IMG/VR virus record: IMGVR_UViG_3300025466_000158
Span: 1 to 26,169 of that record
Length of the DNA: 26,169 nt
DNA from: a virus
Reading direction: 5' to 3' (one strand)
Part shown: positions 3,667-25,753 of the stretch, one piece after another
Layout of the letters: each line of letters opens with the position of its first letter
How positions within the stretch are numbered: position 1 is the first letter of the stretch
Notes under the pieces: model-generated
The model's database searches: none
The model's input: only the letters and a program-made list of their open reading frames with translations
What the model was told of the DNA's origin: nothing
Program-made: the position numbers and the translations under genes

Positions 3667-3864
3667 TCAAAATTCATCTTTCGGTTCGTAAAAGTTTGGC
3701 TTGGCCAAGTTAATGCCATTGATTTTGGCTGTCACCTTAGCCCAGTCAGCAGGGTCAGCCCATTGATGAGCAGAGCACAAAGGTTTACCCATGTTGATTG
3801 ACCATTTGTTGGGGCAACCATTGGCTGAACACATCAATCTTGACTCTTCACTGTTGTCTTGCAT
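3667..3864 (-). CDS. Small Cys/His zinc-binding-like protein
   Basis: A 65-residue protein with LMCSANGCPNKW, then PLCSAHQWAD: two cysteines, then a third cysteine and a histidine, a plausible single zinc knuckle. The rest is short and partly helical (DPADWAKVTAKI). It lies between the helicase-loader-like gene (TGATG overlap at its start) and a small gene, in the replication operon. A nucleic-acid or protein-binding role fits the context but is not shown. Small zinc proteins at this position occur near phage replication genes. Confidence 0.6.
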   Translation of the reverse strand: MQDNSEESRLMCSANGCPNKWSINMGKPLCSAHQWADPADWAKVTAKINGINLAKPNFYEPKDEF

Positions 3865-22279: not shown

Positions 22280-22876
22280 CTAAGATAAAATTGATAACGC
22301 TTTTGTAGTAAGCGATATCCTTTCCTGCAAACCAAATGTACCGCCATTGATACGTTTGGTTAAGCCCTCCCAGTTTTGGGCTTCAGCAAGCTCATTACAG
22401 CCATGAGTCTTCCAGAACCACCCTGCACTTAGGGCGGCATACATGGGAGATGCTACCAAGGCAGTATCACCAGTGACAAAGTTTTGATTCACTGCTTGGC
22501 CAAAGTGCCAATAGTTATCGTGGCCAGTCAGTTGGATACAGCCTCTGCCGTGGAATTTCCATCCGTCTCCCGAAGATTCATCACGATTTCCCATTCGATT
22601 AGCATAAATCCGATTGGCAATTTTCTCTGGATGGTGAGCGTAAACGGCAATCTCTTCTGGCTTAAATTTATGTCCGAAGAGCTTTTCCAAGGTTTCTGGT
22701 CTGTAGTTAAGGTTTTCTTCCAATGTCTTGAAATGGTTGCACTCATGCGAGCACTGTCCGATAAAAGCGGCCATTTTTTTGGCATCATTCATCCCAAACG
22801 TGGTAAATGTTGTAGTTAAGGGTTCTGACCATTCAGCACCTATACCTAACGCATGGAGCTTTTCAGGACTGATCAT
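22280..22876 (-). CDS. Endolysin, glycoside hydrolase family 19 (chitinase-like)
   Basis: A 198-residue lysozyme-type endolysin. Key parts: AFIGQCSHECNHFKTLEENL with catalytic E45 and probable second acid E54, GRGCIQLTGHDNYWHFGQAV (the conserved GRG.IQ.TG..NY block) and the end NWEGLTKRINGG. GH19 phage endolysins cleave the peptidoglycan sugar backbone. There is no signal peptide, so it needs a holin. The start overlaps the spanin stop as ATGA. It sits in the lysis cassette with spanins and small membrane proteins. A single-domain enzyme with no cell-wall-binding domain. Confidence 0.9.
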   Translation of the reverse strand: MISPEKLHALGIGAEWSEPLTTTFTTFGMNDAKKMAAFIGQCSHECNHFKTLEENLNYRPETLEKLFGHKFKPEEIAVYAHHPEKIANRIYANRMGNRDESSGDGWKFHGRGCIQLTGHDNYWHFGQAVNQNFVTGDTALVASPMYAALSAGWFWKTHGCNELAEAQNWEGLTKRINGGTFGLQERISLTTKALSILS

Positions 22877-23436
22877 TTGACACCCTCGTTGACTGTCTGT
22901 CTTACTTGGTTGTATTGGGTAATACAGGCGTTGAGGCTTGTGATGGCGTTGTCTCCTTCTGTTGCGATGGAGATAAGAGCTTTGATAGTCTCTCGCTCAG
23001 ATTCGCTTGGAGGGGCTGTATCTCCTCCGCTAGGGGCGGCATTTGTATTGGCTTGTACACCACAGGAGGAGGGGAGGCGCAACTCACCAGAGTCAGCCCT
23101 AGCATCAAGGCGAGCTTTGTTTGAATTAATTGCATTTCTTTCCTTCTGTAGTGAACTACTCAAATTTTTTACTTTTGTAGTTAGCTCTGCTTCTTTTGCC
23201 CGAGCTTCGCCATTAAGTCGCTCAATTTCGACTTGATCTTCTGTAACTCTTCTTTGATAACCGTGATGATCTGCGACATAGTAACCTCCTAAAATCATTA
23301 AAATAACACTGACAATCTGTACTGGGAACTTATATGTACCCAACGGAAACACGTAAGACACTACGTGTACCAAAATTGAACATATAAGTACACAATATGC
23401 AATATAGAGGAAAATGTTAGCGAAAAATTCAATCAT
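22873..23436 (-). CDS. i-spanin (Rz-like) inner-membrane spanin subunit
   Basis: I start at ATG 23436 (MIEFFANIF), preceded by GAGGG, giving 187 residues. A longer frame to 23583 overlaps the upstream gene and looks like chance. The N-terminus has two hydrophobic segments (residues about 4-22 and 35-53), then a long periplasmic helix with heptads (EDQVEIERLNGEARAKEAEL, TTKVKNLSSSLQKERNAI). This topology is that of Rz-type spanins, which join the inner membrane to the outer-membrane lipoprotein and break the outer membrane in the last step of lysis. An embedded lipoprotein frame (22902-23135) supports this. Confidence 0.75.
   Translation of the reverse strand: MIEFFANIFLYIAYCVLICSILVHVVSYVFPLGTYKFPVQIVSVILMILGGYYVADHHGYQRRVTEDQVEIERLNGEARAKEAELTTKVKNLSSSLQKERNAINSNKARLDARADSGELRLPSSCGVQANTNAAPSGGDTAPPSESERETIKALISIATEGDNAITSLNACITQYNQVRQTVNEGVK
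22902..23135 (-). CDS. o-spanin (Rz1-like) lipoprotein nested inside the Rz gene
   Basis: A 77-residue protein read in another frame entirely inside the i-spanin gene, as in lambda Rz/Rz1. Signal peptide MQLIQTKLALMLGLTLVSC with lipobox LVSC, cleavage before the cysteine, then a proline-rich mature part (ASPPPVVYKPIQMPPLAEEI) of about 58 residues. That fits outer-membrane spanin lipoproteins, which are short and proline-rich. The nested arrangement fixes the i-spanin reading frame below it. Not a chance frame: lipobox, proline content and genetic position all agree. Confidence 0.8.
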   Translation of the reverse strand: MQLIQTKLALMLGLTLVSCASPPPVVYKPIQMPPLAEEIQPLQANLSERLSKLLSPSQQKETTPSQASTPVLPNTTK

Positions 23437-23905
23437 TGACGCTATCCCTCGCATGAGCCATTCTAAGTCTTTCCTCGTCATCTTCCAAGACAGGTGGGCC
23501 TGACGGAGGGGGTGGAGGTGTCCAATTCTGGAATTGAACATTAGACTGTGGCATTGCCCCAAAAGGTTGCGACATAGCCCCAAAACCCATAGGCTGTCCG
23601 AAATTGGGGTAGCAAGGGGGCATCTGAGGTGTTGTGGCTTGTTTTATCGATCCCAAAGAACCTGCTATGCCCCCCGCTACTTTTTTGCCTGCAACGCCTC
23701 CTATTGCCCCCACAAGGAGGAGCACGATGTCGTTGAGCATCTTTGTATACGCTTGGTCAATCGGGGCCATAGCTTTAATAGGCTGAACCACAAAAGTGAC
23801 GGAATAAAGAAGAGCAATAACAATGAAAAATAAAATGGCAGTAATAGATAGGACAACAATCGCCCAAACACGAGTGACAATTTCTTCATCTGTTAATCTA
23901 TTCAT
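23429..23905 (-). CDS. Two-TM membrane protein, holin candidate
   Basis: A 158-residue protein with two membrane helices (residues about 13-41, VWAIVVLSITAILFFIVIAL; and about 58-84, IVLLLVGAIGGVAGKK and onward), then a long soluble C-terminal tail rich in P, Q, M, F (PPCYPNFGQPMGFGAMSQPF; TPPPPPSGPP). Holins are small multi-span proteins, and this lies next to spanins and endolysin, so holin is the leading idea. The long proline-rich tail is unusual for one. Start overlaps the lipoprotein stop as ATGA. Confidence 0.55.
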   Translation of the reverse strand: MNRLTDEEIVTRVWAIVVLSITAILFFIVIALLYSVTFVVQPIKAMAPIDQAYTKMLNDIVLLLVGAIGGVAGKKVAGGIAGSLGSIKQATTPQMPPCYPNFGQPMGFGAMSQPFGAMPQSNVQFQNWTPPPPPSGPPVLEDDEERLRMAHARDSVND

Positions 23906-24063
23906 TTCACTGGCGCGGTCAAGTACTCAGGACAAGTCTGACTAAACTCGCACTGAGGATGCTGACACTCTTTCTCATTAAAATGGGCAAAGTCTTGACA
24001 CTTGTACCTGTAAGCATCTTTACAGGAAACTAGTAAAAGCGTGAGAATAATTACATATCTCAT
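23902..24063 (-). CDS. 53-residue cysteine-rich lipoprotein
   Basis: A short gene from ATG 24063 to TGA 23902-23904. It encodes a signal peptide with lipobox (MRYVIILTLLLVSC) and a mature peptide with four further cysteines (YRYKCQDFAHFNEKECQHPQ, then CEFSQTCPEY). Start overlaps the upstream -1-frame stop as ATGA, and its own stop overlaps the next start as ATGA. A short lipoprotein with this CQD..FN..EC pattern is remembered from other aquatic phages but not verified. It could be a second outer-membrane lysis partner or a superinfection factor. Confidence 0.7.
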   Translation of the reverse strand: MRYVIILTLLLVSCKDAYRYKCQDFAHFNEKECQHPQCEFSQTCPEYLTAPVK

Positions 24064-24610
24064 TCAATGACACCTTTGCTTTTTTGGTAGTCTAGATGAA
24101 TACCATACATGAGTACGGAGAAAATAAATATCCATGTAACCACGCCCGTAGCCAAAGCCACTCGAACTTTCCATTTATCGATAAACTGGCGGCGCTGAAG
24201 GGCAACCAACTCACGGGCTTTTTTTCGTCACGCTCGATTTTTTCTCGCTCTTTTCGCACAATTTCGCGCATTTCTGTGAACTTTTGCCATAAACCGGGCA
24301 TCCCGACCTGATAAATGATCATTTCTCTTAACTCAGTCTCCATCTGATCGATCTGCTGTTGGCGCAGAATTCTGTTCATTGCCTCTTCGTTGATGCTGAT
24401 ATTCTTGGGCAATGGGTTCTTCTTGGCTTCTTTCTCTGCTTCTTTGAAAGACTCTTGGTGAGTAAAAAATGCGCCAAGGTTTTTCCCAATATCCCCGACA
24501 ATATCACCAACGTCTTTACCGTCCCGCTTGAAGTCTTGATATAGATCAATGCACTCACGAATCCCTGCATGAGCCGCCTTACACGCCGCAAAGATGGTGA
24601 TTGGATCCAT
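24060..24610 (-). CDS. Coiled-coil membrane protein made by probable -1 frameshift
   Basis: Frame 0 runs from ATG 24610 to a stop at 24092 (172 residues). Its first 131 codons look genuine (ITIFAACKAAHAGIRECIDL, then LREMIIYQVGMPGLWQKFTE, a charged coiled coil); the last 41 residues do not. At 24224-24218 the mRNA has A AAA AAG in the exact zero-frame phase for -1 slippage. The -1 frame adds 52 residues (RRQFIDKWKVRVALATGVVT, then WIFIFSVLMYGIHL), a membrane helix, and stops at 24060, overlapping the lipoprotein start as ATGA. The whole would be 183 residues: soluble coiled coil plus C-terminal anchor. Alternatives are a simple indel in the A7 tract or a sequencing error. Confidence 0.65.
24218..24224 (-). 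promoter_or_regulatory. Slippery heptamer A AAA AAG
   Basis: Codons AAA AAG preceded by an A, as in E. coli dnaX. The -1 frame is closed by a TGA only two codons upstream (24230-24228), so the shift has to happen at or after this site. No strong stem begins within ten bases downstream; a hairpin CCAGUUUA-UCGA-UAAAUGG lies about 29 bases after it (24171-24189). Confidence 0.65.
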
Positions 24611-24804
24611 TAGATTCCAAAGAACTTGTGGAAAAACTGAGCCGCCACACCCGGCCCAAACATCACCATGGCCATCACAGCATAGATCAAATACTCGATC
24701 TTAGTCATGCGTCTTTCGCCATTCTTTAACGATGCTTCAATGTTGCGATAGCGCTCATCGCAAACAGCAATGTGGACGGCTAGGTCTTTCTCGGTATCGC
24801 TCAT
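24610..24804 (-). CDS. Small one-TM membrane protein
   Basis: A 64-residue protein: a charged N-terminal helical part (DLAVHIAVCDERYRNIEASL, KNGERRMTKIE), then one membrane helix (YLIYAVMAMVMFGPGVAAQF) and a short end. The layout is like XhlA-type holin-associated proteins, with a soluble coiled part and one C-terminal membrane span. It is coupled to neighbours by ATGA and TAATG. It belongs to the lysis cassette; holin helper is a plausible role, not shown. Confidence 0.55.
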   Translation of the reverse strand: MSDTEKDLAVHIAVCDERYRNIEASLKNGERRMTKIEYLIYAVMAMVMFGPGVAAQFFHKFFGI

Positions 24805-25031
24805 TCTTCACCTATGATTGCTGTTGATGTTTCTCTGTTAATGGTCATTTTACCTTCGCAGGTAAAGTTCCAATCTTCACTTCTAGAGTCTTTTTCAGTC
24901 TTTGAGGGTACATTTATTTCAACATTCTTGAATAAATATTCCTTTTCTCCCTCAAAGACTCTCCAACAATGGTCTTTTGAACCCCTTCCAGTTGCTCCCC
25001 TAGATTTGTTGAATCTGATTGAATACTTCAT
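24801..25031 (-). CDS. Small basic phage protein, unknown function
   Basis: A 76-residue protein, basic N-terminal part (SIRFNKSRGATGRGSKDHCW, RVFEGEKEYLFKNVEINVPS) followed by an acidic polar half (EDWNFTCEGKMTINRETSTA). It looks beta-rich and compact. Similar short proteins are recalled in aquatic T7-like and other podophages, but I have not checked. It is coupled to both neighbours by ATGA overlaps. No motif tells its function. Confidence 0.6.
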   Translation of the reverse strand: MKYSIRFNKSRGATGRGSKDHCWRVFEGEKEYLFKNVEINVPSKTEKDSRSEDWNFTCEGKMTINRETSTAIIGEE

Positions 25032-25753
25032 ATCACCTCAGCCTCTGGTGGCGTGGTAATAGTCACTAGATTATTAACTCTAACACCAATATTGAAGTGA
25101 ATAAACTTCAAAGGCTTTAAGGATGCATGGCGAGTAAAAGAATGGGGTGCCCAAGCATTGGCAAAAAATATCATCCCTGCCTCTGGCACAAAATTAATCA
25201 TGTTACTAGCCTGAGTTGCTTCGTTCATATTGGATTCAGGAATATGAGCCATGACCTTACCGGGTCTAGGATCATGAACTACAACCCTTGATGACTCTGG
25301 CGGCACTTCAATAAAGTAGAAACCAACAATCTGCGCCCCATAAGGATGAACGTGCTCGTCCATTGCCGAATGTCTGTGGTGCTCTTGCCCCCAAAACTCA
25401 GTGAAAAATGTGACCTTATCATCCATTTTGTAACCCTGAGATTGCAAAATGTTCCAAGCAGTTGATGCAATGTAATTGCAAGCCTCTTCCAATCTTGGAT
25501 CACCAAACAAGTTTCCAGTCATGTGAACTGGGTATAACTTGTCCAATAATTTATCGGTCTTACCCTTCTTCTCTTTTTTAATTAACTTTATGTTTTCGTT
25601 GAAAACAGCAGTGGCATCTTTGAGAAATTCTTTTTTCTTGATGGTATATACGGCTGTAGGGAAGTAAAAGTGAGCACTTAATTGCTGTTCAATTGCTTCT
25701 TGGTTTACTTCCTTAACTTCACCAACAATTTCAACAGAGTTTTCGTCAAACAT
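25028..25753 (-). CDS. 2OG-Fe(II) oxygenase-like protein (TIGR02466-type)
   Basis: A 241-residue protein. The Fe(II) site is suggested by MDEHVHPYGAQIVGFYFIEV (H134/H136), the strand VVVHDPRPGKVMAHIP and the distal histidine in AWAPHSFTRHASLKPLKFIH (H204) with a basic residue for 2-oxoglutarate. This order (H-x-H-P then GFYF then P.SSR then WAPH) matches the TIGR02466 / 2OG-FeII_Oxy_5 family of phages and aquatic bacteria. Such enzymes hydroxylate proteins or DNA bases; the phage substrate is unknown. Upstream is a tail-fibre gene end, downstream the lysis cassette. Confidence 0.75.
   Translation of the reverse strand: MFDENSVEIVGEVKEVNQEAIEQQLSAHFYFPTAVYTIKKKEFLKDATAVFNENIKLIKKEKKGKTDKLLDKLYPVHMTGNLFGDPRLEEACNYIASTAWNILQSQGYKMDDKVTFFTEFWGQEHHRHSAMDEHVHPYGAQIVGFYFIEVPPESSRVVVHDPRPGKVMAHIPESNMNEATQASNMINFVPEAGMIFFANAWAPHSFTRHASLKPLKFIHFNIGVRVNNLVTITTPPEAEVI

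Follow-up and report, generated by a model that had tools for sequence, protein, structure and literature searches.

A conserved candidate -1 programmed ribosomal frameshift that would append a membrane helix to a lysis-region protein of uncultured freshwater phages

The gene described here lies in a 26,169 nt stretch of viral DNA (IMG/VR record IMGVR_UViG_3300025466_000158, positions 1 to 26,169; referred to below as the window). Judged from the sequences of its relatives, it appears to be subject to a dnaX-type -1 programmed ribosomal frameshift that makes the membrane attachment of a lysis-region protein partial, and we put the probability of this reading at roughly 0.9. The sequence features expected of a dnaX-type signal are all present, namely an in-phase conserved heptamer, an upstream Shine–Dalgarno-like element, a downstream stem–loop and selection on both frames. 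An initial annotation, made from the window alone, had already proposed a frameshift here. The alignments of relatives support that proposal in so far as they establish a conserved site, a switch of frame, homology of the helix, candidate stimulators and two open frames; the slippage, the set ratio of products and the action in lysis that came with it remain inferred, and no expression data stand behind the reading.

In the window the 0-frame gene occupies 24610–24092 on the minus strand and encodes 172 amino acids. The slippery heptamer A AAA AAG (24218..24224, minus strand) falls in the codons gaA AAA AAG, in the X XXY YYZ phase, and the 131 amino acids up to Lys-Lys (24218..24610, minus strand) would be common to both products. 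This N-terminal part belongs to a family of unknown function, PHROG 32327, and is mostly helical by prediction, in a low-confidence model. The -1 frame, which has a TGA at 24230–24228, two codons ahead of the slipped Lys codon, continues for 52 codons and a TGA (24060..24218, minus strand; ARELVALQRRQFIDKWKVRVALATGVVTWIFIFSVLMYGIHLDYQKSKGVIE) and stops at 24062–24060, overlapping the ATG of the next gene (ATGA), so that the predicted fusion product has 183 amino acids. The unshifted product would carry a 41 aa tail (24092..24217, minus strand) and end 28 nt short of the next gene. Most of this had been set out in the initial annotation: the zero-phase heptamer at 24224–24218, the -1 frame opening two codons before it and ending after 52 codons at 24060 in the next ATG, and an unshifted end at 24092 that leaves a gap and a 41-residue tail where the other junctions show ATGA or TAATG coupling. 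Each of these particulars was found as described, the neighbouring junctions being indeed ATGA or TAATG. Codon shuffling predicts about 1.9 in-phase A AAA AAG heptamers in the ORFs of the window, where 1 is observed, and gives this gene an 8% chance of holding one. In one genome alone the heptamer is not above chance and proves nothing, so the question had to be settled by relatives.

The first search of IMG/VR used the N-terminal part only, all search patterns preceding the heptamer. It yielded 80 loci, and in all the intact ones A7G is kept without change of place or phase and leads into a -1 frame tail of like pattern. After further scans the heptamer was present, again in the same place and phase, in 68/68 distinct full segments; the intact relatives amount to about 115 IMG/VR contigs with 68 distinct sequences, every one with the heptamer. 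A scan with a short conserved stretch upstream of the site (GMPG.W...F....MR) found it in phase in 113 of 114 matches. The single exception, L050, has a 1 nt insertion upstream of the heptamer that breaks its frame (L050:1442-1530), either an assembly error or a natural mutant, and one further locus, L453, has an additional A7G further upstream besides the in-phase copy. Homopolymers are error-prone and, as described below, distant homologues have a continuous frame, both of which would fit a sequencing error or a pseudogene, the true frame being continuous and the A7 count wrong or the gene broken. Against this, the same A7G recurs in about 115 contigs from many metagenomes, the clade has yielded no intact member with a continuous frame, the context of the site is conserved at synonymous positions, 0-frame stops are depleted, and broken frames are rare in the family background (L050 and L382). 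That the A7 was miscounted is very unlikely, since many assemblies of diverged phages agree in the tract, and error or gene decay as a whole can be given next to no credence. No close relative was found among 50,697 phage records; in 84,980 prokaryote genomes no relatives were found either, and no host can therefore be assigned.

It is exactly at the heptamer that third-position variability passes from the 0 frame to the -1 frame. Column entropies by codon position average 0.34/0.11/1.10 for the 0 frame up to the site and 0.78/0.53/1.38 for the -1 frame beyond it. The pN/pS ratio is 0.12 in the 0 frame before the site and 0.34 in the -1 frame after it (46 codons); over the first 26 codons the -1 frame gives 0.35, the 0 frame 1.05 and the +1 frame 1.73. 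By these substitution patterns the -1 tail is under purifying selection. In relatives this tail has 50–55 amino acids, laid out as a basic stretch, one transmembrane helix and a short C-terminal tail, with the conserved residues KRRQFIDKW...LMYGIHLDYQKSK. The helix is predicted at 24099..24161 (minus strand) in the window, by 19-residue hydropathy, and the membrane helix that had been noticed there from the window alone proved to be a strongly hydrophobic feature of 34/34 representatives (hydropathy at least 1.99, against at most 1.12 in the 0-frame tail).

A tail of this kind could also be a small membrane protein in its own right, initiated independently, the heptamer being incidental. Lysis regions often contain small proteins with one helix, and in the window a 49-codon ORF begins with TTG at 24209. 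However, in 12 of the 34 representatives the -1 frame has no ATG, GTG or TTG before the helix, and no start position is common to all 34; independent initiation of the tail was rejected. The -1 frame is moreover conserved from the heptamer onwards, and the homologues are single fusions. The chance that two independent genes lie here seems to us very small.

The homologues in question were reached through a weak tblastn match to Manatee Spring phage MW202462, whose protein (UOF77123) has the helix in one continuous frame. The gene neighbourhood is similar: a small one-helix gene precedes the homologue, a chitinase-type endolysin lies downstream, and the lipoprotein after the homologue shares a YRYKCQD motif with that of the window. 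The GenBank start of UOF77123 (locus position 3686; L238:3662-3686) is probably too late, and the open frame extends upstream to a conserved N terminus, LDPLTLLAMANG, like MDPITIFAA in the window. The family of this homologue gave 504 IMG/VR matches, 80 of which were kept. Among these 80 the helix is in frame wherever the reading frame is complete, with the exception of L382, and the relatives with complete frames have no heptamer at the junction. L382, in which the frame is broken and the heptamer is absent, is an assembly error or a natural mutant. HMO-2011 gp60 and CRP-118 gp38 are more distant continuous-frame members, and the HMO-2011-type genes are continuous in 46/46 cases and without the heptamer. 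In an hhalign comparison the predicted fusion product aligned with the continuous family over 146 columns, through the helix (E 1.7e-21), and a profile comparison with a mixed distant set gave E 1.1e-21. The alignment through the helix implies that the helix is a native part of the protein, which in the window clade lies behind the frameshift site. The window gene thus has the N-terminal domain and the C-terminal membrane helix of the HMO-2011 gp60/UOF77123 family (PHROG 32327-like) but not, its helix being in the -1 frame, the continuous frame of that family, and on this comparison the window clade is a homologous but differently expressed branch of it. Since the helix is in frame in the other members, the ancestor was probably a continuous-frame protein, tail-anchored in the inner membrane with a cytoplasmic N-terminal domain; that the continuous state came first is inferred from its wider distribution, with no tree behind it. 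The initial annotation had named two observations as decisive: that homologues encode the helix without a change of frame, or that other phages share the heptamer. Both have now been made, the former in distant, partly syntenic homologues and the latter in every intact member of the window's clade. It had also conceded that it would be refuted by homologues with no product other than one terminating as the 0 frame does, and this was not the case, the 0-frame tails of relatives varying from 26 to 41 codons with no constraint on their amino acids.

Although the 0-frame tail is so variable, its reading frame is kept open. Within 26 codons after the site we observed 0 stops in the 0 frame against 9.8 expected when synonymous codons were permuted within columns (z -5). 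Controls in the +1 frame over the first 26 codons, and in the 0 frame beyond them, were at expectation; two controls upstream of the site departed slightly from it (z -2.6 and +1.9). The depletion loses some significance through shared ancestry, but the contrast with matched controls is specific, and early 0-frame stops remain at zero when 9–22 diverged lineages are taken. The depletion speaks against error and against complete shifting, and suggests that both products are made. As to why some 26 codons without conserved residues should stay open, keeping terminating ribosomes off the downstream hairpin is one possibility.

Two candidate stimulators flank the heptamer. The upstream one, GAGCGTGA (24228..24235, minus strand), is a candidate internal Shine–Dalgarno-like element complementary to the 3' end of 16S rRNA, pairing with UCACCUC with one bulged C. 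All 8 nt are invariant, including the synonymous third positions of a Glu and an Arg codon. The predicted duplex averages -8.1 kcal/mol, the strongest in the stretch examined, against -5.4 for the synonymous null, and about 4% of synonymous recodings pair as strongly; the pairing is bulged, however, and assumes an E. coli 16S end, the host being unknown. The -1 frame TGA at 24228–24230, which forms part of GAGCGTGA, is invariant in 68/68 sequences, and may be a by-product of rRNA pairing or may matter itself. Downstream, a candidate hairpin (24179..24215, minus strand) of about -10 kcal/mol is predicted in the window. Across relatives, 40 nt downstream windows fold at -9.4 kcal/mol versus -5.0 for synonymous recodings (mean z -1.74, against -0.21 for an upstream control), and the effect is present in 9–22 diverged lineages (z -1.07 to -1.45). 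A local hairpin is predicted in 34/34 representatives, its pairing register drifting between lineages, and because of this drift no structure emerged when one consensus fold was sought for all 34 RNA sequences. Covariation support for the hairpin is weak, and its excess stability is seen only in local windows against the synonymous null; ordinary shuffles over 70 nt gave no excess (z -0.83; upstream control -0.87).

The A7 run, present in all members, would also allow transcriptional slippage, in which RNA polymerase adds or drops an A so that some mRNAs encode the anchored form; slippage on a run of A yields the same two frames. Efficient polymerase slippage usually needs longer runs, which we count against this explanation, and the tract is exactly A7 followed by G in 68/68 sequences, always in the X XXY YYZ phase, though AAG is usable for Lys. 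The conserved 16S-complementary element and the local hairpin, in addition, make a ribosomal cassette. A/T homopolymers are said to cause transcriptional slippage; the same source describes the heptamer, an upstream rRNA-pairing element and a downstream hairpin for prokaryotic -1 signals (PMC4066793). We allow the polymerase only a slim chance here.

The end of the -1 frame is tied to the start of whichever gene follows. In the window this is a small predicted lipoprotein gene (23902..24063, minus strand) whose ATG overlaps the -1 frame stop. Among relatives the next gene is swapped, being a lipoprotein, an MSWIE/MDWLK-type small protein, an Rz-like protein or another small membrane protein, and the stop–start junction is kept: in every representative with a readable next gene its start lies at -11, -1, +2 or +4 nt from the -1 stop. 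The 0-frame stops lie 25–82 nt upstream of the next start. From these positions we infer that shifted ribosomes would be placed for coupling and unshifted ones would not. Exchange of the gene after the frameshift gene was seen in L001, L057, L427, L497, L304 and others (lipoprotein, MSWIESIAPTIAS-type, Rz-like).

By position, the description of this locus as a lysis region was right. The frameshift gene is part of a tightly coupled operon, with a 2OG-oxygenase-like gene on one side of it and genes for Rz, Rz1 and endolysin on the other. Immediately upstream is a gene for a small protein with a coiled coil and one membrane helix (24610..24804, minus strand), a similar small gene preceding the MW202462 homologue. 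Downstream on the same strand, beyond the lipoprotein gene, are a two-helix membrane protein that is a holin candidate (23429..23905; phrog_25359, 2.6e-10), with only a weak match to a holin family, an Rz-like inner-membrane spanin (22873..23436; phrog_1327, 3.6e-11), an Rz1-like lipoprotein spanin (22902..23135; phrog_3198, 1.2e-5) and an endolysin of the GH19 chitinase family (22280..22876). The Rz1-type gene is nested wholly inside the Rz-type gene, and the 2OG-Fe(II) oxygenase-like gene (phrog_81; 25028–25753) is found upstream within the same run of genes. No function for the frameshift gene emerged from Pfam, PHROGs or structure comparison, and no match to a holin or antiholin family was found for it; its two structure models, both of low confidence, are all helical and match only uncharacterised phage proteins. 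Because the gene stands beside holin-like, spanin and endolysin genes, a part in lysis is plausible, on position only.

Our preferred explanation is that some ribosomes read GAA AAA AAG in the 0 frame and go on to add the variable, unconserved tail without a membrane helix, while a set fraction would pause as GAGCGUGA upstream pairs with the 3' end of 16S rRNA and the hairpin blocks the way downstream. In the paused ribosomes both Lys tRNAs would re-pair one base back; translation would then continue for another 50–55 codons, which take in the basic stretch and a single membrane helix, and would terminate at the start codon of the following gene. Since positive charge precedes the helix, the N-terminal domain is predicted to be cytoplasmic and the short tail periplasmic. 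In this way the frameshift would have turned full anchoring into partial anchoring. The slippage itself, its rate, the topology, the coupling to the next gene and any setting of lysis by the proportion of the two forms are all inferred. It is tempting to go further and picture a rheostat for the timing of lysis, in which slippage fixes the ratio of an anchored effector to a soluble competitor and shifted ribosomes reinitiate on the next gene, one site thereby setting both dose and partner expression, but this is a tentative idea that we regard as doubtful.

The closest known parallel in mechanism is E. coli dnaX (tau/gamma), which likewise has A AAA AAG, an upstream Shine–Dalgarno-like element and a downstream stem–loop. 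In dnaX, however, the shifted product is truncated, ending soon after the site, whereas that of the phage gene is longer and anchored; the phage element is a bulged GAG-C-GUGA close to the site, and the two genes are unrelated. The G/GT genes of tailed phages (E/E+E' in P2) also append a C-terminal domain by a -1 frameshift in a late gene, conserved across diverged phages, but they lie between the major tail and tape-measure genes and the domain is used in tail assembly. The window gene, by contrast, is a neighbour of lysis genes, what it gains is a membrane helix, and its family, an unrelated one, includes continuous-frame relatives. Its identification as a G/GT tail assembly chaperone was rejected, the gene lying by Rz, Rz1 and endolysin and not between major tail and tape-measure genes. 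Recoding that alters membrane attachment is known from E. coli copA and from animal viruses (PMC5009743). In copA -1 frameshifting also gives a membrane-bound and a soluble product from one gene, but there it is the 0 frame that encodes the membrane protein, the short soluble one arising by the shift, whereas in the phage gene the shift supplies the anchor. The MS2 lysis gene ties frameshifting to lysis in another way (PMC5009743, PMC10885494): frameshifting has been proposed to link the upstream gene to lysis expression, but by delivering terminating ribosomes to an overlapping start, with no anchored isoform encoded. PRFect lists lysins among genes 'known to contain a frameshift'. Our literature search, from which subscription journals were mostly absent, found no frameshift reported for this gene family and no case of anchored and soluble forms in a phage lysis region.

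Among tailed phages, conserved programmed frameshifts have been documented mainly in tail genes. Here a candidate complete cassette would control the membrane anchor of a lysis-region protein across a whole clade of uncultured freshwater phages, in which gene callers confined to the 0 frame truncate the protein and miss its conserved helix. The homologues without the frameshift offer a natural comparison through which to ask what purpose a constant proportion of anchored and unanchored protein may serve.
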